From Ruminococcus sp. (GTDB lineage: Bacteria; Bacillota; Clostridia; Oscillospirales; Ruminococcaceae), in contig JAIDQQ010000020.1 of assembly GCA_029062165.1 (NCBI GenBank), positions 62,001 to 126,000 of the forward strand: a stretch of DNA of 64,000 nt, given 5' to 3'. The notes under the pieces were generated by a model. The model had not been told where the DNA came from and made no database searches. It saw only the letters and a program-made list of their open reading frames with translations. Positions 12,435-57,725 of this stretch are shown piece after piece. Numbering within the stretch: the first letter of the stretch is position 1; each line of letters opens with the position of its first letter. The translations under genes and the position numbers were made by a program.

Positions 12435-14996
12435 GTAGAGTAGGAAAGCGTCGCCTTGCTTTATCACTAAAGTAGGTTTACACTAACCCCTCCCCAAACC
12501 GTACTTACACCTCTCGATGTATACGGCTTTCCATCATAATATAACTAACTAATTTAATCTTGTTCAGGATTATGGATTTTCCTGTGACAATCTTCGCACA
12601 ATACTAAGGTTTTTCTCTGCCGTGCTATCATCATGTATTCCCACGGTTCTTTGGCTTTTAAGTCTTTGAGTTTGTGAACATGATGTATATTAAACGGCAC
12701 GTTTTCTTTTCCGCACATTTCACATTTTCCTGCGGATATTCTCTGTTCAAGTTCAGTTCTTCCTGTGTACTTCATTGTATTTGCTATGCTGTCAATACCA
12801 GTTTCCTTGCTTGGAGTACTTTTCTTCTTGAATCCTTGACAATAGAAGAATCTTATTTTGTTCTTTTCTTCCTTTGTGTCATATCTGATACCCCAGTCTT
12901 TTCCTACTGAAAACTGGCTTCTTATTTTGTACACACTGCTTTTGTGTTTTCCTGCAAGTGTTTTTAAGCAACTGTATTCCATGACATGATATATCATGTT
13001 CATTCTTGAAGATACATTCAATGCCATTGCATAATAGTTATATAGTCCTCTTATTTCTGTGTTGTATGTTGTAACTATTTCTAAATCACTCAAACATTGA
13101 AGATATGGTCTTGCTTTTCCTCTCCAGTGTTCAGCATTTATGTCTTGGACTACACCTTTTTCATTGATGTAATTAAACATAACATCTCTTGGCATATACA
13201 GTGCTATTCCCATATTTCCAGTTCTTCTTTTCTGACCGTTTTTGTTCTCAAAGAATTGGTTATTTTCACAGACCTGTATTTCATAGCTTAAAAATCTTGC
13301 CTTTTCTCTACTATGCGTTATCAGTGTTTTTTCTTCGGAAAGTTCCAGTTTCAGTTCACTTTTTAAATATTCCGTCAGTTCATCTTTAATGTCTTGACAG
13401 TCCTGTTTACTTCCTATAACACCAATAATAAAATCGTCTGCGTATCGCACATACTGCATATTTTTATAATTGCCTAATCCTGTTTTTTCAGGTTCATTAT
13501 TCCGTAATTTCTGTAATCGCTTGTACTCATTGATAAGCTCCTGTCTGACTGTTTCGTCCTCACATTTGTCTATCTGCTTTTTGAGCTTACCCATGTCGTT
13601 ACTGAGTTTAACATATATCGGATTTCTTACTCTGTTCTTCTTGGCATTGCCCTCATTGTTGGCTGTGAACTTTTGCTTGATAGCTTCTATTCTTGTGTCA
13701 AGTTCATTCATATATATATTTGCCATTATGGGACTTATAATACCACCTTGTGGCGTTCCGCTGTATGTGTTTCTGTATTTCCAATTCTCTATATATCCTG
13801 CTTTCAGGAATTTCCATATCAGTCTTATAAATCTTTCGTCTTTAATTCTTTTTCGCAAGATATTTATTAAAACAGTGTGGTCTATGTTGTCAAAACAACC
13901 CTTTATGTCTCCCTCTATGAACCAATTCGCACCTTTAAATGTTCGCTGTACTTGTGCTAATGCGGTATGACAACTTCTTTGTGGTCTGAATCCATGCGAT
14001 TGGTCGGAGAATACAGGTTCATAAATTGCTTCTAATATCATTCTGCATACCTCTTGCACAAGTCTGTCACTAAAGCTTGGTATGCCTAATGGTCTTTTCT
14101 TGCCGTTCTTTTTGGGAATATATGTCCTCCTTACAGGCTGAACTTGATAGCTCTCGTCTTTTAAGCTGTCTATAATACGCTGTATGCTTTTTTCACTAAA
14201 TCCGTCTGCGGTTTCATTGTCGTTACCGCTTGTGGAGCTACCATTGTTGTTATAGATATTACAATACGCTTTAATATACATATTTGCATTGCACAAATTT
14301 CTGTATATTCTTTCAAACTGATATTCCTTATTTTGCGCTTGTTTCGTTAGTTCAACTAAAACCTTTTCTGAATCTCTCATTGGGGAACTTCCTCCATTCT
14401 TCTTGGTTTTAATTCATTATGACTGCTGTCCTTTGCCATGTAAACGGCTTTCCCATTCTCGGACTACTACGACAGCTCCGTTGCCATGTCGGATATTCAA
14501 ATGACTTTTCATTATAGCTTAACTTGTATTAAGCGTTCCGATTTAGGCAATCTCCGTTTAGTACAATAATTGCAAGTATACGGTTATTGTCGGATAATTC
14601 TTTAGCGTTTTTACATTTTCTCAACGTATGCCCCAAGTTATTTAACATCATTGCTGATGTGAGAACCATTGATTTTACTCCCTAAGGTTAAAATCAACAC
14701 TGTCTTAGAAGTAGGTCAATTCCTTGACATAACTTAGTCTATCGTTTCAACTGGTTTCGATAGTGCCTCACGATTTGACTGCTCACGCTCGAATTTCAAG
14801 TAGAACAACTTTTATCCTCATATAACCTTTACATCTCGCTATTCAGTCGTGACATTCCAGTTTGTCAACTTATAGCTTTCTGACCATGCTACACTCCCCG
14901 TCTGATTTCTCTTTTGGATAAGGTCAGTGATGTTATCCCGTTCTCTTAGGATAGTAACACTAATCGTTACAACAACTATTGCCCTTACGGACGCAC
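12435..14996 (-). mobile_element. Group II intron inserted in gpmI
   Basis: 2562 bp, same strand as gpmI. The 5' end is GTGCGTCC (consensus GUGYG) directly after the exon codon GGT. The 3' end is TAC directly before CAT. Removing it restores SEVG-HTNIG in frame. Domain V is at about 12496-12532 (AAGCCGTA pairing with TACGGTTT, with the AGC triad). Domain VI (12435-12495) ends CCTACTCTAC with a bulged A seven bases from the 3' end. The 616 bp between the 5' end and the ORF (14381-14996) hold the domain I-III RNA core and no other gene. I found no CCGG in the intron, although CCGG is very common elsewhere in the window, which supports recent acquisition. Confidence 0.95.
12554..14380 (-). CDS. 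ltrA: Group II intron reverse transcriptase/maturase with HNH endonuclease
   Basis: 608 residues, encoded in intron domain IV. Order: N-terminal RT0 region, RT core (about 75-350) with SHGFRPQRSCHTALAQV, TPQGGIISPIMANIYMNELD and the catalytic YADD in YVRYADDFIIGV, then a maturase/thumb region (about 370-500), and a C-terminal HNH domain with CEMCGKENVPFNIHHVHKL and CEDCHRKIHN (about 545-605). The wording is close to Ll.LtrB LtrA, so mitochondrial-like class (IIA) is likely. It would assist splicing of its own intron and drive target-primed retrohoming. All key motifs are intact. Confidence 0.95.
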   Translation of the reverse strand: MRDSEKVLVELTKQAQNKEYQFERIYRNLCNANMYIKAYCNIYNNNGSSTSGNDNETADGFSEKSIQRIIDSLKDESYQVQPVRRTYIPKKNGKKRPLGIPSFSDRLVQEVCRMILEAIYEPVFSDQSHGFRPQRSCHTALAQVQRTFKGANWFIEGDIKGCFDNIDHTVLINILRKRIKDERFIRLIWKFLKAGYIENWKYRNTYSGTPQGGIISPIMANIYMNELDTRIEAIKQKFTANNEGNAKKNRVRNPIYVKLSNDMGKLKKQIDKCEDETVRQELINEYKRLQKLRNNEPEKTGLGNYKNMQYVRYADDFIIGVIGSKQDCQDIKDELTEYLKSELKLELSEEKTLITHSREKARFLSYEIQVCENNQFFENKNGQKRRTGNMGIALYMPRDVMFNYINEKGVVQDINAEHWRGKARPYLQCLSDLEIVTTYNTEIRGLYNYYAMALNVSSRMNMIYHVMEYSCLKTLAGKHKSSVYKIRSQFSVGKDWGIRYDTKEEKNKIRFFYCQGFKKKSTPSKETGIDSIANTMKYTGRTELEQRISAGKCEMCGKENVPFNIHHVHKLKDLKAKEPWEYMMIARQRKTLVLCEDCHRKIHNPEQD

Positions 14997-22866: not shown

Positions 22867-23820
22867 TCACATCACTTTATGTAGTAATTCGTATTGTCTG
22901 TCGATTCGTTCCTTTGCTTTCCGGCGGAAATCCGGCGGAGATACTATTTCCAGCATAGCACCGTAACTTAAAAGCCTTATTAATAATTCCGTTTCGTCCT
23001 GTCTGTCGTACCACAGTTGCACCATACATACACCTGTTTCCGAATCATATTCAGTACGTTTTTCATAGGGTGCGAACTCCATAAAAAAGCGTTCTGTAGT
23101 ATTTCTGCCGGTTGAAACACGGACAGTAACCGGTTCATGACATTTATGTTCATTGAAATATCTTTCGACGGAGATATTTTCGGTAAATATCATACCGGTA
23201 TTTTTTATGTCCGTAATTCTGCCGATATTTATAACGCTTGTACGGTATTTCTGTACAGAAAATGCAAGTATACGGAATCTGTTATTTTTCGGGGAATACT
23301 GTATTTTCAGCGGAATATACAGACCTTTTAAATTTTTGTTGTTTCTGCTGACAAAATTTATTTCAGTTACTTCATGTTTTTTCACAGCAGAAACAATTTT
23401 CCGGAAATTTTTCTGATAATTCATGTCAGAAAAGTCGTCACCGTCGCTGAAACGGTCAGTATACCGGAAATGCTTTTCACTGTAGAGAGGCTTGACATTT
23501 CCGAGACGTTTTTTCAGGGAATCTATAGTATTTTTTTCAAGAAAGAGAAGAATTTCCGGACTTTCAAGTTTTGCCATAAGCCAACGTTTCTGTATGCCGG
23601 TCAGGATTGAAACAGGTTTGTTTTTAATTACGGGGATATAGTTACCGTACTGATTTTTCTGAAGCAGACCCCATAAATCGTCAGGGATATGGGCATTAGT
23701 TTCAGTGAAACCCAGTTCGGAAATAATTTTGTTTTTACTGTCTCTTGTGATTTCCGGAAATTTAAGAATTTCAGAAGCAATCCGGAAATAATTACTGTAA
23801 ATTTCATGAAATATTTTCAT
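22867..23820 (-). CDS. WYL-domain transcriptional regulator, second of a pair
   Basis: 317 residues. The N-terminal third holds a degenerate winged-helix-like region. Residues about 125-215 form the WYL domain (HEVTEINFVSRNNKNLKGLYIPLKI.. ..RILAFSVQKYRTSVINIGRI). A C-terminal WCX-like extension follows. WYL proteins sense ligands such as nucleic acids or nucleotides and control stress or defence genes. Its ATG overlaps the stop of the first WYL gene (ATGA), so they are translationally coupled and may form a heteromer. Confidence 0.8.
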   Translation of the reverse strand: MKIFHEIYSNYFRIASEILKFPEITRDSKNKIISELGFTETNAHIPDDLWGLLQKNQYGNYIPVIKNKPVSILTGIQKRWLMAKLESPEILLFLEKNTIDSLKKRLGNVKPLYSEKHFRYTDRFSDGDDFSDMNYQKNFRKIVSAVKKHEVTEINFVSRNNKNLKGLYIPLKIQYSPKNNRFRILAFSVQKYRTSVINIGRITDIKNTGMIFTENISVERYFNEHKCHEPVTVRVSTGRNTTERFFMEFAPYEKRTEYDSETGVCMVQLWYDRQDETELLIRLLSYGAMLEIVSPPDFRRKAKERIDRQYELLHKVM

Positions 23821-25055
23821 AATTCTCCGTCCTTGTATATGACATTTTTCAGCTGACGTATATCATTACAGAAACGTTCTGTTACATCTGCGTTACTGCT
23901 TTTTAAGGATATTATTCTGCCGGTAAAGGTTCTAATCCATGGTATGAGTTCATTGGAATCGAGTGTTTTTATGGTCAGCCGGAAATAATTGTTTCCGGTT
24001 TTTTCGAGAATACCGTTTCTTTTTTCACGTTCAAGACGTTCGATAATATATTTTTCGTTGATTTCGTCAATAAAGAAATCAATCGTTACGGTTTCGGTTT
24101 TGAGATAATTTTTCCACGGACCGAACGAGGCATTAAAACAATATTTACAGCAGTTCATGTACTGACTGTATATCTCGTCATAGTAATCACATATATTACC
24201 GGTTATAATTTTTTCAGTGAAGTCAAGCCTTAGTGAAGTGAAACGTTTATCAACATACATAGCAAGATAACGCCTTCCTGTTTCGAGTGATGACATTATC
24301 TGTAACGGAATTATATTGTTTATAGTTTTATCTTTATTACGGAAATTCACCACGGATATATATTTTTTGTTTTCTATAGCTTCAATGATTTCAGATATAA
24401 TAATATCTTCAAGAGTATGTACAATATAATTATGTTTGGTCACGAAAATATCATTTCTGATACCTGCTGATTTAAGTATGCTGTTTCCTATAACTCCGAA
24501 TTTCTGGGTTTCCGAAAAAAACTTGACCGCATCAGCGAGACCTTCATATTTTTCTGTAAAATCGCCGACAGTATCAGGTGAAAGACGGAAATATGAAGTT
24601 TTTTTAACTTTTTTGGTTAATATTATACCCTCTTCCACGTATTCAAGGAGTTTTTTTCTGACAGTCTGCATTTCAAAGAGTTCATTGTATGATTTATCCA
24701 TTTTAAGTAAAATTTCTTTCAGGGACATGAAATTTCCGTCGATGAGGGTATCAATAATAAAGAAGTGTAATTTTATATCGTTTGGAGTAAAACTCTTTGA
24801 GTAGTAAGCATTATAAAGCGGATTTTCGGAAATACAACCGCTGTCAAGGGAAATAGCTACTTTTTTTCTGTGCTGTGAATTATCGTATTTCATGTAATCG
24901 CTTAACCAGCTTTCTATACGACGTTTTTCGTCGTCGTAGGTTCGTTTACTTTTTCTTTCAAAGTCGCCTCTCACTTTAAAGCCATATATAAAGAAATCAC
25001 GTATATAATGTCTTGTTTTATCAAAATTCTTGACCAGTTCCGAAAACCCACCCAT
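23817..25055 (-). CDS. WYL-domain transcriptional regulator, first of a pair
   Basis: 412 residues from ATG 25055; a GTG at 25067 sits too close to the SD (AAAGGAA). Residues about 85-165 contain a winged-helix (DIKLHFFIIDTLIDGNFMSLKEILLKM). Residues about 225-300 are the WYL domain (NKKYISVVNFRNKDKTINNIIPLQI...RRYLAMYVDKRF). The C-terminal part is WCX-like. It is transcribed divergently from the hairpin-RNA array and DUF2828 gene, and so is the natural candidate for their regulator. Confidence 0.8.
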   Translation of the reverse strand: MGGFSELVKNFDKTRHYIRDFFIYGFKVRGDFERKSKRTYDDEKRRIESWLSDYMKYDNSQHRKKVAISLDSGCISENPLYNAYYSKSFTPNDIKLHFFIIDTLIDGNFMSLKEILLKMDKSYNELFEMQTVRKKLLEYVEEGIILTKKVKKTSYFRLSPDTVGDFTEKYEGLADAVKFFSETQKFGVIGNSILKSAGIRNDIFVTKHNYIVHTLEDIIISEIIEAIENKKYISVVNFRNKDKTINNIIPLQIMSSLETGRRYLAMYVDKRFTSLRLDFTEKIITGNICDYYDEIYSQYMNCCKYCFNASFGPWKNYLKTETVTIDFFIDEINEKYIIERLEREKRNGILEKTGNNYFRLTIKTLDSNELIPWIRTFTGRIISLKSSNADVTERFCNDIRQLKNVIYKDGEL

Positions 25056-25082
25056 AAAGACATTCACTTCCTTTCATATATA

Positions 25083-25146: not shown

Positions 25147-25174
25147 TGATTTTTCCAGAAAGCTGTGGTATACT
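25147..25174 (+). promoter_or_regulatory. Extended -10 promoter of the RNA array
   Basis: TGG-TATACT at 25166-25174 is a good extended -10, but no recognisable -35 lies 16-18 bp upstream. This suggests an activator-dependent promoter, with the divergent WYL pair as candidates. Transcription would start near 25181. Confidence 0.5.
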
Positions 25175-25191
25175 TAGAACATACAAAGGGA

Positions 25192-25318
25192 ACGGCTTAT
25201 ACAGCAAATATTTCATGAGGTTGTTTATAGGTGAGGACTGTGTAAAGTTTCGCAACAGCGACAGCAGTTGTGTCATTGCAATGACCACCGGAAGTCACAG
25301 ACTTTTACGTGCCGTGAA
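25192..25318 (+). ncRNA. Array unit 1 (long, weakest)
   Basis: ACGGC (25192) pairs with GCCGT (25311-25315). ACAGC follows the 5' arm at 25201; the 3' motif is GAAA, not GTAA. Inside are the perfect 14-bp palindrome GTCATTGCAATGAC (25272-25285) and small stems AAGTC/GACTT and GCAAC/GTTGT. An alternative hairpin TTACGTGCC / GGGCACACGTAA (to 25339) competes with it. Confidence 0.35.
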
Positions 25319-25368
25319 ATCTGTAAGGGCACACGTAAGGGGTTAATACGTATGCCTGCTCCTTATCA

Positions 25369-25461
25369 ACGATTCTGACAGCAATATATTTCTTTGTGGT
25401 CGCAGGGAACTTGTACAGAAATGTATTCAAGTCTGCATAAGAAAAAAACAGAATCGTGTAA
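25369..25461 (+). ncRNA. Array unit 2, hairpin RNA with ACAGC/GTAA motif
   Basis: Closing stem ACGATTCTG / CAGAATCGT (9 bp). ACAGC (25378) comes right after the 5' arm and GTAA (25458) right after the 3' arm. The interior folds into nested stems GCAG/CTGC and ACTTG/CAAGT, capped by TACA-GAAA-TGTA. Confidence 0.65.
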
Positions 25462-25467
25462 ATTTTA

Positions 25468-25552
25468 ATGGTTCTTACAGCAAAAAAATGCACATCACGC
25501 CGGCAAGTCGGAAAACAGAAATGTTCTCTGACACCGAAACAGAACCATGTAA
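25468..25552 (+). ncRNA. Array unit 3, hairpin RNA with ACAGC/GTAA motif
   Basis: Closing stem ATGGTTCT / AGAACCAT (8 bp) with ACAGC at 25477 and GTAA at 25549. The interior has TCGG/CCGA enclosing CAGA/TCTG. Confidence 0.65.
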
Positions 25553-25565
25553 AAACAAAAGCTGA

Positions 25566-25625
25566 AAGGTTCGTACAGCAATATTTTCGCTTATCTGTCA
25601 AATAAGATTGAAATGAACCTTGTAA
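25566..25625 (+). ncRNA. Array unit 4, short hairpin RNA
   Basis: Closing stem AAGGTTC / GAACCTT (7 bp) with ACAGC at 25575 and GTAA at 25622. The inner hairpin is CTTAT/ATAAG. Confidence 0.65.
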
Positions 25626-25640
25626 GGCTTTTGTACCCGA

Positions 25641-25698
25641 AAGACACTTACAGCAATTCTTACATATTTTATGGGAAAATATTTGATGTGTCTTGTAA
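25641..25698 (+). ncRNA. Array unit 5, short hairpin RNA
   Basis: Closing stem AAGACAC / GTGTCTT (7 bp) with ACAGC at 25650 and GTAA at 25695. The inner hairpin is ATATTTT/AAAATAT with loop ATGGG. Confidence 0.65.
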
Positions 25699-25719
25699 AC
25701 TTAACCTCTGAAAATATTA

Positions 25720-25802
25720 ACGATTCTGACAGCATTAAAATCAGGGGCATAGTACGCCGGACGGAAACGTTATCAGGCACTATGAAAAAATGAATCGTGT
25801 TA
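25720..25802 (+). ncRNA. Array unit 6, hairpin RNA next to the DUF2828 start
   Basis: Closing stem ACGATTC / GAATCGT (7 bp, the same stem sequence as unit 2) with ACAGC at 25729 and GTTA in place of GTAA. The interior has CATAGT/ACTATG enclosing GCC/GGC. It ends 21 bp before the DUF2828 ATG. Confidence 0.6.
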
Positions 25803-25823
25803 CATAAAGAAAAGAGGTATTTT

Positions 25824-27293
25824 ATGCTTGATTATCTGAAAAAAGAAAGTTCCGTCACTACTACTGAAAACGGTGCTTTAACATACTCCACAACCGGAAA
25901 TGAATGTCTTGACCTGTTTTTCAAGGCTGGTGCTATGCGTTCCGCCGAAGAAAAGGAAATAGCTAATGTTGTAATCCGTGCATATGTCGAAAATCCTGAA
26001 AAAACTATGAAGATTATTTTTTATGTCCGTGATATAAGAGGCGGTTTAGGTGAAAGACGCTTTTTCAGGACAGCCATAAAATCCCTCCTGAAATGTTATC
26101 CCGACGCTGTAGAAAGAAATATACCGTATTTTGCGGAATACGGACGTTACGACGACTTAATGACCGTCATAGACAGTCCGTGCGAAAGCACAGCAGTAAA
26201 TGAAATAAAAAAACAGCTTGATTCCGATATTCAGGCAATGAACGCTGATAAAAACGTTTCACTTCTTGCGAAGTGGTTGCCGTCCGTCAATACGTCGTCG
26301 GAAGAAACAAGGAAACTCGGCAAGAAAATGTGTCGCCTGCTTGGTATGAACGAAAAGACTTACAGACAAACATTATCTTCATTGAGGAAATATATTGATA
26401 TAATAGAAAATCGTCTCCGTGAATCAGACTACACTTTCGACTATTCAAAACAACCTTCCTGTGCAATGTTCAGATACCGTCAGGCTTTTCTTAGGAACGA
26501 CGAGGAACGTTATACAGAATATCTCAAAGCCGTAGACAAAGGCGAAACTACTATTAATACATCTGCTCTCTATCCGTATGAGATAACAAGAAAATGTAAT
26601 GAAAATAAATGTATGTCCGAAGACGAAAAACTTTCACTTGACGTAACATGGAAGAATCTCCCTGACTATGCAACCACCGACGAAAACGCCATAGCAGTTA
26701 TAGATACTTCCGGTTCTATGACATGGAGTGAAAATTCGTCAGTACGTCCTTTGGATGTTGCACTTTCGCTGGGTATCTACTTTGCCGAACACAATAAAGG
26801 TACTTTCGCAAATCACTTCATAACATTTTCTGAAAATCCACGTCTTATAGAAATAAAAGGCGATGACATATTTCAGAAAGTCAATTACTGTATGAAATTT
26901 ACAGAATATGCAAATACAAACCTTGAAGCCGTATTCAATCTGATTCTTAATACTGCTGTTAAAAACAAATTGCCACAGGAAGAACTTCCGACAAAAATAT
27001 ACATCATATCAGATATGGAATTTGATTACTGTATAGAGGGCGGAAACAGTCTGCCACTCTTCGAGACCATGAAGAAGAAATATCAGAAAAAAGGCTATAA
27101 ACTTCCCGATATTGTTTTCTGGAATGTCAACAGCAGACAGTCAAATATGCCCGTAAGTATGTCAGAAACTGGTGCTACACTTGTATCAGGTTTTTCACCT
27201 GTGATATTTGACATGACCATATCCGGCGATATTTCACCGGCTTCAGTTATGGAAAGGGTTATTTCTTCTGAACGTTATGCACCGATAAAATAA
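25824..27293 (+). CDS. DUF2828 protein, Ro60/TROVE-like with C-terminal vWA domain
   Basis: 489 residues from ATG 25824 (SD AGAGGT). The N-terminal two thirds are helical repeats with the DUF2828 signature KIIFYVRDIRGGLGERRFFR and AEYGRYDDLMTVID. The C-terminal third (about 290-480) is a von Willebrand A fold with the metal site DTSGSM and downstream FSENPRL and SDMEFDYC segments. DUF2828 is related in architecture to Ro60/TROVE proteins, rings that bind Y RNAs and misfolded RNA. A hairpin-RNA array directly upstream and divergent WYL regulators suggest a dedicated ribonucleoprotein. RNA binding is inference; no enzymatic residues are seen. Confidence 0.85.
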   Translation: MLDYLKKESSVTTTENGALTYSTTGNECLDLFFKAGAMRSAEEKEIANVVIRAYVENPEKTMKIIFYVRDIRGGLGERRFFRTAIKSLLKCYPDAVERNIPYFAEYGRYDDLMTVIDSPCESTAVNEIKKQLDSDIQAMNADKNVSLLAKWLPSVNTSSEETRKLGKKMCRLLGMNEKTYRQTLSSLRKYIDIIENRLRESDYTFDYSKQPSCAMFRYRQAFLRNDEERYTEYLKAVDKGETTINTSALYPYEITRKCNENKCMSEDEKLSLDVTWKNLPDYATTDENAIAVIDTSGSMTWSENSSVRPLDVALSLGIYFAEHNKGTFANHFITFSENPRLIEIKGDDIFQKVNYCMKFTEYANTNLEAVFNLILNTAVKNKLPQEELPTKIYIISDMEFDYCIEGGNSLPLFETMKKKYQKKGYKLPDIVFWNVNSRQSNMPVSMSETGATLVSGFSPVIFDMTISGDISPASVMERVISSERYAPIK

Positions 27294-27295
27294 AT

Positions 27296-27327
27296 AAAAA
27301 AAGCGGTTATTATGACCGCTTTTTTCA
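27296..27327. terminator. Bidirectional terminator between DUF2828 and sigE
   Basis: AAAAAAGCGGT / ACCGCTTTTTT with a 7-nt loop. A and T tracts on both sides serve both convergent genes. Confidence 0.85.
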
Positions 27328-27341
27328 TGTTTCTGAAAAGT

Positions 27342-28040
27342 TTATGTTATACTTTCGAGTTTAACACGTAATTTATGTATGATTTTCTTTTCAAGACGTG
27401 ATATATATGACTGTGAAATACCTATTTGTTCAGCTACTTCTTTTTGAGTTTTTTCCTTGCCGTCGATAAGTCCGAACCGCATTTCCATAATTTCACGTTC
27501 ACGGTCACAAAGTTCCGCAACGGCATTACGAAGTATTTCCCTTTCGGCTTCGGTTTCGATTCCCTTGTTTACAATATCGTCATCAGTGCCGAGTACGTCC
27601 GATAAAAGAAGTTCATTTCCGTCATAGTCTATATTCAGTGGCTCATCTATGGAGAGGTCATTTCTGTACTGTGAGGACTTCCGCAGGAACATAAGTATTT
27701 CATTTTCTATACACCGTGAGGCATACGTTGCGAGTTTTATATTTTTTGTAGGACAGAAAGTATTTACCGCCTTTATAAGACCTATAGTACCGATTGAAAT
27801 AAGGTCTTCGAGACCTATTCCTGTTGATTCAAATTTCTTTGCTATATATACAACAAGTCTTAAATTATGTACAATAAGTCTGTCACGGGCGGACGGGTCA
27901 TTTTCAAGAAGACCTTTGAAGACTTCCTCTTCCTCCTGACGTGTAAGCGGTGGTGGGAGAGTGTCCGGACCGTTTATATAGAATACATCACAACTGAAAA
28001 TATCCCTGAATTTTTCAAGAATCATCTGAATAATGTTCAT
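27342..28040 (-). CDS. sigE: Sporulation sigma factor E (pro-sigma-E)
   Basis: 232 residues from ATG 28040 (SD AAGGAGG). Mother-cell sigma factor of early sporulation. The N-terminal pro-region ([17 protein letters not shown]) ends near [14 protein letters not shown], equivalent to the processing site. Region 2 has [16 protein letters not shown] and [12 protein letters not shown]; region 4 has [12 protein letters not shown] and the [23 protein letters not shown]. It lies 16 bp after spoIIGA, its processing protease. Confidence 0.95.
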
Positions 28041-28056
28041 AAAAATTTCCTCCTTT

Positions 28057-28866
28057 TTATATTTTAAGAATTTTCGGATTAAATACAGCATTTCCGGAAT
28101 TTTCGCCCAGACCTATTACAGCGTCTACTTTTTTTCTTTCGCCGGAGAGAGTATTTTTTATAAGTACCTCGTCCGGACGGAAAACTTCTATAAAACCGCT
28201 GTCGGATATAGTGGAGCAGGGCAGAATCCGGAAACCTTTCGGAATACTTCCGTTATTTTTTATTCCGCTGAATTTTTTCCTGTCGCATACTATGACCGGC
28301 GAACCGGAAAAGAAATCTGTCAGGGAATTTCCGGTATCTGCAAGTCCGTCAAGAGTTACTACAGTATCCATGTATTTTATTATAACGTCGTAACAGTCTG
28401 TACTTTCAGGTGTGCGGTACATGAAATTTTCAGCGATATATACAAGAAAATACATGACAGCAGTTGTCAGGACAAGTAACAGAAGTGAAAAATCTATATA
28501 GAAATAGGAATTATTGAACTGCATGAAATCCGGTTCAGACCATGAGTATACAGCGTATACAGTTCCGGCGAGTATGAAGTTTGCCGAAAAAAAAGCGACT
28601 GTATTTATAATCAGGCGTTTTTTACCCTGAAATCCGAAAGCTATTATAACAATCGTCACCACAGCGATAAGTTTTATCAGCGTATTGATAAAACCGTTCA
28701 GACTTGGTGCGAGTATCAGTAATGAGTAGATACTTCCATAGACGGCAGTTATCATACATCGCCGGAAACTAAGCGGTGAATGCGTAATGCGTGCCGTTAT
28801 ACGAAGAAGAAAATAATTCACGTATATATTCAGTATGATAAGGACATCAATATAGATAGTCTGCAC
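28057..28866 (-). CDS. spoIIGA: Sigma-E processing peptidase
   Basis: 269 residues. Five N-terminal membrane spans (residues about 5-150) are followed by an aspartic-protease-like domain with [20 protein letters not shown], where DTGN is the catalytic signature. The C-terminus has VIGLGENSG. It cleaves pro-sigma-E at the division septum after a forespore signal. The SD GGGAGGTG precedes the ATG. A TGTCGGAA sequence upstream (about 28932) only partly matches a Spo0A box. Confidence 0.93.
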
Positions 28867-57584: not shown

Positions 57585-57590
57585 GGAAAC

Positions 57591-57701
57591 ATCTTCGGGG
57601 CAGAGTGAAATTCTCTACCGGCAGTGAAAGTCTGCGAGCCTGTAAGGGTTGAATCGGTGAAATTCCGATACCGACGGTTAAAGTCCGGACGTGAGAAGAT
57701 G
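57591..57701 (+). promoter_or_regulatory. FMN riboswitch (RFN element)
   Basis: The conserved RFN blocks are all present: ATCTTCGGGGCAGAGTGAAA, CTACCGGC, GCGAGCC, GATTCGGTGAAATTCCGA-like segments and GACGGTTAAAGTCCGG, closed by the P1 stem ATCTTC / GAAGAT. FMN binding would favour the downstream terminator and shut off ribD-ribE-ribBA-ribH. Confidence 0.96.
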
Positions 57702-57725
57702 TTACTGTTTCACGCTATATCCATA

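Follow-up and report, generated by a model that had tools for sequence, protein, structure and literature searches.

Rsr, the bacterial Ro60 protein, is encoded together with the small RNA YrlA and the rtcBA genes, for instance in the rsr-yrlBA-rtcBA operon of Salmonella. Chen et al. reportedly found in 2014 that more than 250 species of bacteria and phages have Y RNAs close to Ro60, each species with at least one that resembles transfer RNA (tRNA). A passage of PMC7765460 already mentions YrlA in phages. The subject here is a gene for a DUF2828 protein, and the tandem small RNAs encoded just before it, in a 64,000-nucleotide (nt) stretch of Ruminococcus sp. (contig JAIDQQ010000020.1, positions 62,001 to 126,000), which as a whole is called the window. 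The window DNA is chromosome-like and comes from a genome of 2.72 Mb in 53 contigs that is 92% complete (G000). In anatomy and family the locus is of the Ro60/Y-RNA type with tandem RNAs. It is like Rsr/YrlA in the Ro60 fold of its protein, in having gene-adjacent small RNAs closed by pairing of their 5′ and 3′ ends, in the tRNA-like modules that such RNAs have in several phages and other Clostridia, and in the presence of RtcB near some loci.

The RNA units have in common a handle, made of 7 variable base pairs (bp), 2 nt and the motif ACAGC, then a payload, the partner arm and a G. Five perfect units and one weak one are present in the window, all 5′ of the gene:

25192..25315, plus strand: unit 1, weak; closing stem ACGGCTT/GTGCCGT imperfect, ACAGC at 25201-25205
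25369..25457, plus strand: unit 2; handle ACGATTC-TG-ACAGC / GAATCGT-GTAA
25468..25548, plus strand: unit 3; handle ATGGTTC-TT-ACAGC / GAACCAT-GTAA
25566..25621, plus strand: unit 4; handle AAGGTTC-GT-ACAGC / GAACCTT-GTAA, with an Asp-type anticodon arm CTTAT-CTGTCAA-ATAAG in the payload
25641..25694, plus strand: unit 5; handle AAGACAC-TT-ACAGC / GTGTCTT-GTAA
25720..25798, plus strand: unit 6; handle ACGATTC-TG-ACAGC / GAATCGT-GTTA, with a long hairpin payload common within the genus
25824..27293, plus strand: DUF2828 protein, Ro60-like (helical-repeat ring plus vWA domain)

In each perfect unit a 5′ arm of exactly 7 nt is followed by 2 nt, then ACAGC, then a payload that measures 33-68 nt, and then the exact partner arm; GTAA comes next in four units and GTTA in one. 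The original prediction, made from the letters alone, had counted five good units and a weak one, and this was borne out, the five having exact 7-bp arms and the weak one being best read as 25192-25315. Its ACAGC also stands, while the linker that it put at 0-2 nt after the 5′ arm becomes 2 nt once the stem is counted as 7 bp; its GTAA (once GTTA) holds for the window units and fails as a general rule, where only the G is general. The array ends where it had said, unit 6 with its GTTA closing at 25802 and the ATG at 25824 lying 21 nt further. The closing stem of unit 1 has 5 Watson-Crick pairs, one mismatch and one G-T, and in its counterpart, the first unit of the relative L029, all 7 stem positions are paired. 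The first units of the window (25192-25315), L033 and L029 have a long payload with a common TTTCGCAACAGCGACA core, and unit 6 and the ACGGCTC/ATGGTTC-type units of the genus align over a common long hairpin payload, GGGNCNNAG..CTNNG.

Folding energy singles out only units 2 and 3, which fold better than 200 of 200 shuffles (z -3.25 and -4.38; unit 4 has -2.14, unit 5 -1.32, unit 6 -1.33 and unit 1 -0.41), so that the array is not provable by energy alone, and it is comparison that proves it. Counting the window's own genome, 33 of 99 relatives have DUF2828, as do 20 of 391 genomes in the class (16 above the cut-off) and 7 of 398 in the phylum. The handle adjoins it in all 60 distinct bacterial loci kept, with L004, L048, L063, L089, L104 and L113, where the DUF2828 match starts past residue 5, left out before the count. 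These 60 loci hold 232 units, from 1 to 7 per locus and 2 to 6 in 57 of them; strict units number 192, with at least one in every locus. In 40 of 41 loci, the window included, strict units are found no more than 2 kb upstream of the gene, and the 41st (L113) begins at a contig end and has no upstream DNA; outside this zone the 41 loci have one strict unit on the same strand and one on the opposite strand. An A comes after ACAGC in 214 of the 232 units. The G after the 3′ arm was a requirement in picking units, and GTAA is the commonest of several endings there (37/232).

As these units had been picked for pairing, the unbiased test of covariation used ACAGCA[AG] sites up to 1.2 kb upstream in 57 loci (n = 206). 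The reverse complement of a site's own arm, with a G, follows within the next 135 nt at 155 of them, compared with 14.6 ± 3.3 (maximum 25 in 500) when arms were dealt at random among sites and 1 of 298 at control sites; 36 distinct arms occur among the paired sites. The covarying array that had been predicted upstream of other DUF2828 homologues is thus found there. Searched for by itself, the handle pattern is in 40 of 149 relatives, its backward control in none, and DUF2828 is present in 26 of the 27 handle-pattern genomes that were also searched for the gene. The exception, G039 (contig C263), has an assembly of about 270 contigs, and in G012 the handle match and the gene are on different contigs, C39 and C22 respectively. 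The pattern overlooks long payloads and matches 26 of the 33 DUF2828 genomes.

By sequence the window protein is only DUF2828/DUF7788, and it is structure comparison that gives its fold as Ro60, in which helical repeats form a ring with a vWA domain attached. Both families were matched by 40 of 40 members, and Pfam TROVE at E 0.001 by none of the 40. D294, S296 and S298 of the predicted vWA metal site, D-x-S-x-S, are invariant across 40 sequences. The Ro-like reading of the protein is upheld by this fold and by co-occurrence of the handle across Bacillota and phages. As first proposed, the handle would bind the protein and the interiors may serve different clients, many interiors turning out to mimic parts of translation RNAs.

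Payload types recognised are anticodon loops, T arms (e.g. GCAGGTTCAAATCCTGC), whole or permuted tRNAs and, twice, helices 70-71 of 23S ribosomal RNA (rRNA). Loops of 7 nt equal to tRNA anticodon loops include CTGTCAA/CTGTCAC (Asp), CTGTTAA (Asn), CTTTTAA (Lys), CTGAAAA (Phe), CTTTCAC (Glu), CTGCTAA (Ser) and CTCATAA (Met), identities being taken from tRNAs found in this analysis save for CTGAAAA and CTGTCAA, which we take to be Phe and Asp loops. After removal of 5 of the 232 units for odd arms or motifs, the remaining 227 collapse to 220 distinct payloads, which include related ones and so lack full independence. A loop-unselected count of distinct 5-bp/7-nt hairpins found 26 of the CU-NNN-A kind in these 220, where shuffles averaged 0.65 (maximum 3) and the reverse complement had 3; T loops numbered 14, where shuffles averaged 0.09 (maximum 2) and the reverse complement had 0. 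For the 39 payloads from phages, with the plasmid L182 left out, the values are 5 CU-NNN-A loops against 0.18 (maximum 2) in shuffles, and 7 T loops against 0.03 (maximum 1). The looser rule YUNNNRN gives 63 payloads and 38 in the reverse complement and so lacks strand specificity, for which reason reliance is placed on exact loops, CU-NNN-A and T loops; the loop reference being drawn partly from unit-holding loci, the loose-rule count used tRNAs of the window genome only.

The Rfam tRNA model found tRNA-like bodies inside two units (48.5 and 32.2 bits; 20 loci searched). Anticodon-arm stems of the payloads are unlike those of the window genome's tRNAs, the loops being alike, so it is the loops that seem to have been copied and not tRNA genes. 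Furthermore, the anticodon changes within common flanks: TTATC-loop-GATAA holds CTGTCAA, CTGTCAC or CTTTCAC; GACTATG-loop-CGTAG holds CTGTTAA or CTTTTAA; CTCATA-loop-TATG holds CTGTTAA, CTTTTAA or CTGCTAA; CTTAT-loop-ATAAG holds CTGTCAA (the window), CTGCCAA or ATTTTAA; and CATAAGA-loop-TCTTA holds CTGAAAA or CTTAAAA. In units, not necessarily orthologous, of two mycobacteriophages, TTTCA-loop-TGAAA has CTGCTAA or ATGGTAA.

At GAAATTCCTTGTCAGGTAAGTTCTGACCCGC, which we take to be helices 70-71, 23S rRNA is matched by two payloads whose genomes belong to different families, over 20/20 and 29/32 positions (E 8.6e-7 and 5.5e-7; 40.1 bits versus a best of 26.3 in one shuffled set). The UUCCU within this stretch is a cut site of a mycobacterial MazF toxin. 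More general rRNA mimicry was considered and rejected, other blastn matches of payloads to four rRNA loci being at about the level of the shuffled set (26.3 bits) or else falling on tRNA-like sequence that flanks those loci. A role of payloads as guides was set aside as the loops equal tRNA loops, no search for target complementarity having been made. As separate observations, a tRNA-like match directly upstream of DUF2828 in G785 (L087 1318-1430; 49.2 bits) has in place of its anticodon arm a 49-nt insert with handle arms in swapped order (ATGTCTTG..AAGACGTTAACAGCAATC), an arrangement that resembles the permuted phage RNAs described below in un-permuted form, and units of L099 and L097 have an anticodon-type loop TTCATAG (CAU) inside larger tRNA-like payloads.

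The bacterial layout recurs in lytic phages. A DUF2828 protein is encoded in 680 of 50,697 phage records, and among plasmid records in 4 of 72,556. Handle units are present in 14 of the 21 phage loci that were read, and the filter used there gave none on the opposite strand; a looser one gave single opposite-strand matches in L172, L173 and L182. No units were found beside the DUF2828 protein of the plasmid L180. Five of these phages, namely three mycobacteriophages, Felix O1 and a staphylococcal one, have their units downstream of the gene. Permuted tRNAs, in the order T arm, closed acceptor, D arm, occur in units of FADO, UTI-EfS3, Kingsolomon, Faith1 and Felix O1. The YrlA model (Rfam RF02553) scored three such phage units, in 2 of 6 loci scanned, at 47.8, 37.9 and 34.3 bits, all below its gathering cut-off of 69 bits; it gave no score for the permuted-tRNA units of FADO and Felix O1, and no match in the window array or in 20 Bacillota loci. 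tRNA genes flank DUF2828 in 10 of 17 annotated phage loci, and in Listeria phage P100plus an RtcB-type ligase is encoded 1.3 kb onward. Upstream of DUF2828 in the latter phage, in a tRNA-rich stretch, there is a ROOL RNA match (L171 3456-4007; 86 bits, below the gathering score of 99.1). The tRNA cluster adjoining DUF2828 in Enterococcus phage UTI-EfS3 has a transfer-messenger RNA match (L170 1434-1784; 149.7 bits) that is not among the features displayed for the phage record.

The surroundings of the array and gene in the window are as follows:

22867..23820, minus strand: WCX-type (WYL family C-terminal domain) regulator, second of a divergent pair; its cluster of homologues has members in 22 of 41 loci
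23817..25067, minus strand: WYL-type regulator, first of the divergent pair; its cluster of homologues has members in 25 of 41 loci
25166..25174, plus strand: extended -10, promoter-like TGGTATACT, read off the sequence
27297..27325, plus strand: terminator-like hairpin 3′ of the DUF2828 gene
27342-28091, opposite strand to the DUF2828 gene: sigma-70 family sigma-factor gene, the downstream neighbour

The extended -10 promoter of the original prediction is readable at 25166-25174, but a promoter scan of the window does not have TGGTATACT among its listed sites. The 22867..23820 product scores 18.7 bits with Pfam WCX, under the 23.9 cut-off, and its homologue in L095 is narrowly above it (24.0 bits); for the 23817..25067 product itself a Pfam search gave no match, and its cluster members in L095 and L090 exceed the Pfam WYL cut-off. 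Near DUF2828 in the 41 loci, protein clusters comprise the WYL-type regulator in 25, its partner in 22, another WYL-type protein in 5 and RtcB in 19, cluster representatives exceeding the Pfam cut-offs for WYL and RtcB. A single reading frame in L108 (4203-6545) is a regulator-ligase fusion, WYL plus WCX plus RtcB, and in G108 and G392 the RtcB gene sits between the units and the DUF2828 gene. Elsewhere in the window there is a group II intron match at 12435-12531 on the minus strand and a flavin mononucleotide (FMN) riboswitch at 57587-57704 on the plus strand.

The evidence supports a Ro/Y-RNA-type particle, a variant of the Ro60/Y RNA particle, that is tied to RNA repair, the last because RtcB and WYL genes neighbour DUF2828. 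The preferred reading, to which we give a probability of roughly 0.45, is that one DUF2828 protein is served by tandem small RNAs whose payloads are baits or sentinels for RNA-cleaving toxins. The recognised payloads suggest enzymes acting on anticodon loops, T arms and 23S helices 70-71, and with RtcB, WYL regulators and phage tRNA genes alongside, toxins cutting these RNAs are the likeliest. The DUF2828 protein would bind the handle and hold the RNAs with the payload outward, and the payloads would bind RNA-cleaving toxins or be cut by them in place of tRNAs and rRNA. A cut payload could remain attached to the particle via the closed handle, to be resealed by RtcB where that is present, and the cut RNA or its ends may signal via WYL proteins for higher expression. 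Single anticodon-base changes between related units might then track changes in the toxins met. An excerpt of PMC7790460 has YrlA proposed as a competitive inhibitor of an anticodon nuclease. More tentatively, DUF2828 particles could be a heritable and switchable library of RNA targets, in which each RNA shows one toxin-attacked site, evolves by single anticodon changes and protects, or raises the alarm for, the translation apparatus, and which bacteria and phages use against each other's tRNA- and rRNA-cutting weapons.

Several findings weigh against payloads being baits or sentinels. According to the same excerpt of PMC7790460, the anticodon nuclease in question leaves YrlA uncut, which suits an inhibitor better than a cut bait. 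Mimicry in the window is itself weak, with one Asp-type loop (unit 4) of low folding probability, its loop-closing pair having a probability of 0.05 when free and 0.25 with the linker and ACAGC unpaired. Neither a T loop nor an anticodon-like loop is present in 135 of the 220 payloads, and under the loose rule 85 of the 220 bear a loop, where shuffles give about 11 but the reverse complement gives 38. RtcB is absent from the window locus and from its 92% complete genome; a search of 16 genomes found it in 11, not always at the DUF2828 locus, the window genome and 4 others being negative. Finally, 7 of the 21 phage loci (L173, L175, L178, L179, L186, L187 and L189) have no units beside the DUF2828 protein.

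The main rival is the classical role of Y RNA, in which the handle docks the RNA on the ring and the RNA gates the RNA-binding surface, tRNA-like payloads tether or adapt the ring to tRNA-handling enzymes, as YrlA tethers Rsr to PNPase, and so steer RNA decay or repair, and payload variety means different partners; a gate or tether role is known for Rsr. It accords with the Ro60 fold, with the three permuted-tRNA phage units that score on the YrlA model, with the RtcB neighbours and with what excerpts of reviews (PMC8394870, PMC8058203) have on Rsr-YrlA-PNPase and on YrlA modification by DusA and TruB. Left unexplained are the single-base anticodon changes in conserved frames, the bare anticodon arms and the 23S helix 71 payload, and on balance this explanation is less likely than not. 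Anticodon loops, T loops and 23S helices 70-71 correspond to sites of RNA modification, which gives some weight to payloads being decoys or substrates of modifying enzymes, with the particle tuning or sensing modification. YrlA as a reported substrate of DusA and TruB (excerpt of PMC8394870) points the same way; RtcB, WYL regulators and phage tRNA genes speak instead for cleavage and repair, and the modification proposal is improbable. That the array is a cis-acting leader, an attenuator or T-box-like element controlling the DUF2828 gene only, would suit the 40 of 41 bacterial loci, the window among them, in which units precede the gene and share its strand, but it is very hard to reconcile with the downstream units of the five phages, with the RtcB gene intervening in G108 and G392 and with a unit number that varies from 1 to 7. 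A type III toxin-antitoxin locus likewise has tandem structured RNAs, as near-identical antitoxin repeats, preceding one gene, that of a ribonuclease toxin; here the protein is Ro60-like and not a ToxN-type ribonuclease, which largely refutes the idea, and the units differ in sequence and length and occur on either side of the gene, so that it is scarcely tenable. Remnants of tRNA genes or chance hairpins can be dismissed despite the tRNA-like letters in several payloads, chance being excluded by upstream placement, the handle-pattern survey, the unbiased pairing test and the payload-loop counts, the idea being refuted for the handle, and the anticodon-arm stems differing from tRNAs of the window genome where the loops agree.

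In this family the purpose of bacterial Y RNAs becomes a readable design of one handle and many interchangeable payloads, a good share of them naming likely targets. The look-alikes of tRNA or rRNA parts that such RNAs often display in relatives and phages may protect the translation RNAs of the cell or keep watch over them. If the bait reading is true, the payload lists of bacteria and phages would be a catalogue of the RNA-cleaving weapons that they face. Even if it is wrong, the handle connects a Ro60-like protein with many small RNAs, in bacteria and phages alike, that have had no name.

Among the literature matches listed, no title or abstract opening describes arrays of this kind, and those that name DUF2828 are plant papers. 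‘New ribonucleoprotein system’, as it was first put, is too strong: the particle belongs with Ro60/Y RNA as a variant of it, and phage annotation already has the term Ro-like. The phage Ro-like RNA-binding proteins (PHROG 850; mycobacteriophage annotations) are of the same protein family (E 1.8e-144) and have the same handle; the phage records opened annotate the protein, and none of the units as RNA features. Ro60 of Thermus phage phiLo (PDB 9l5y) and of animals is alike in overall fold, with sequence identity of 10-14%, and we know of no array for either. Type III toxin-antitoxin systems such as ToxIN are alike in having tandem small RNAs before a gene and unlike in protein fold and RNA variety. 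From Rsr and YrlA the differences are that the Pfam TROVE model fails to recognise DUF2828, that its RNAs have another basal stem, with ACAGC, and come in tandem arrays of 1 to 7, that bare anticodon arms, T arms and 23S helices are among the payloads of these arrays, and that WYL regulators are present where Salmonella has RtcR. Tandem Y RNA arrays may be partly anticipated in print by the 2014 paper; what is new here is that many payloads, to judge from their sequences, mimic translation RNAs.

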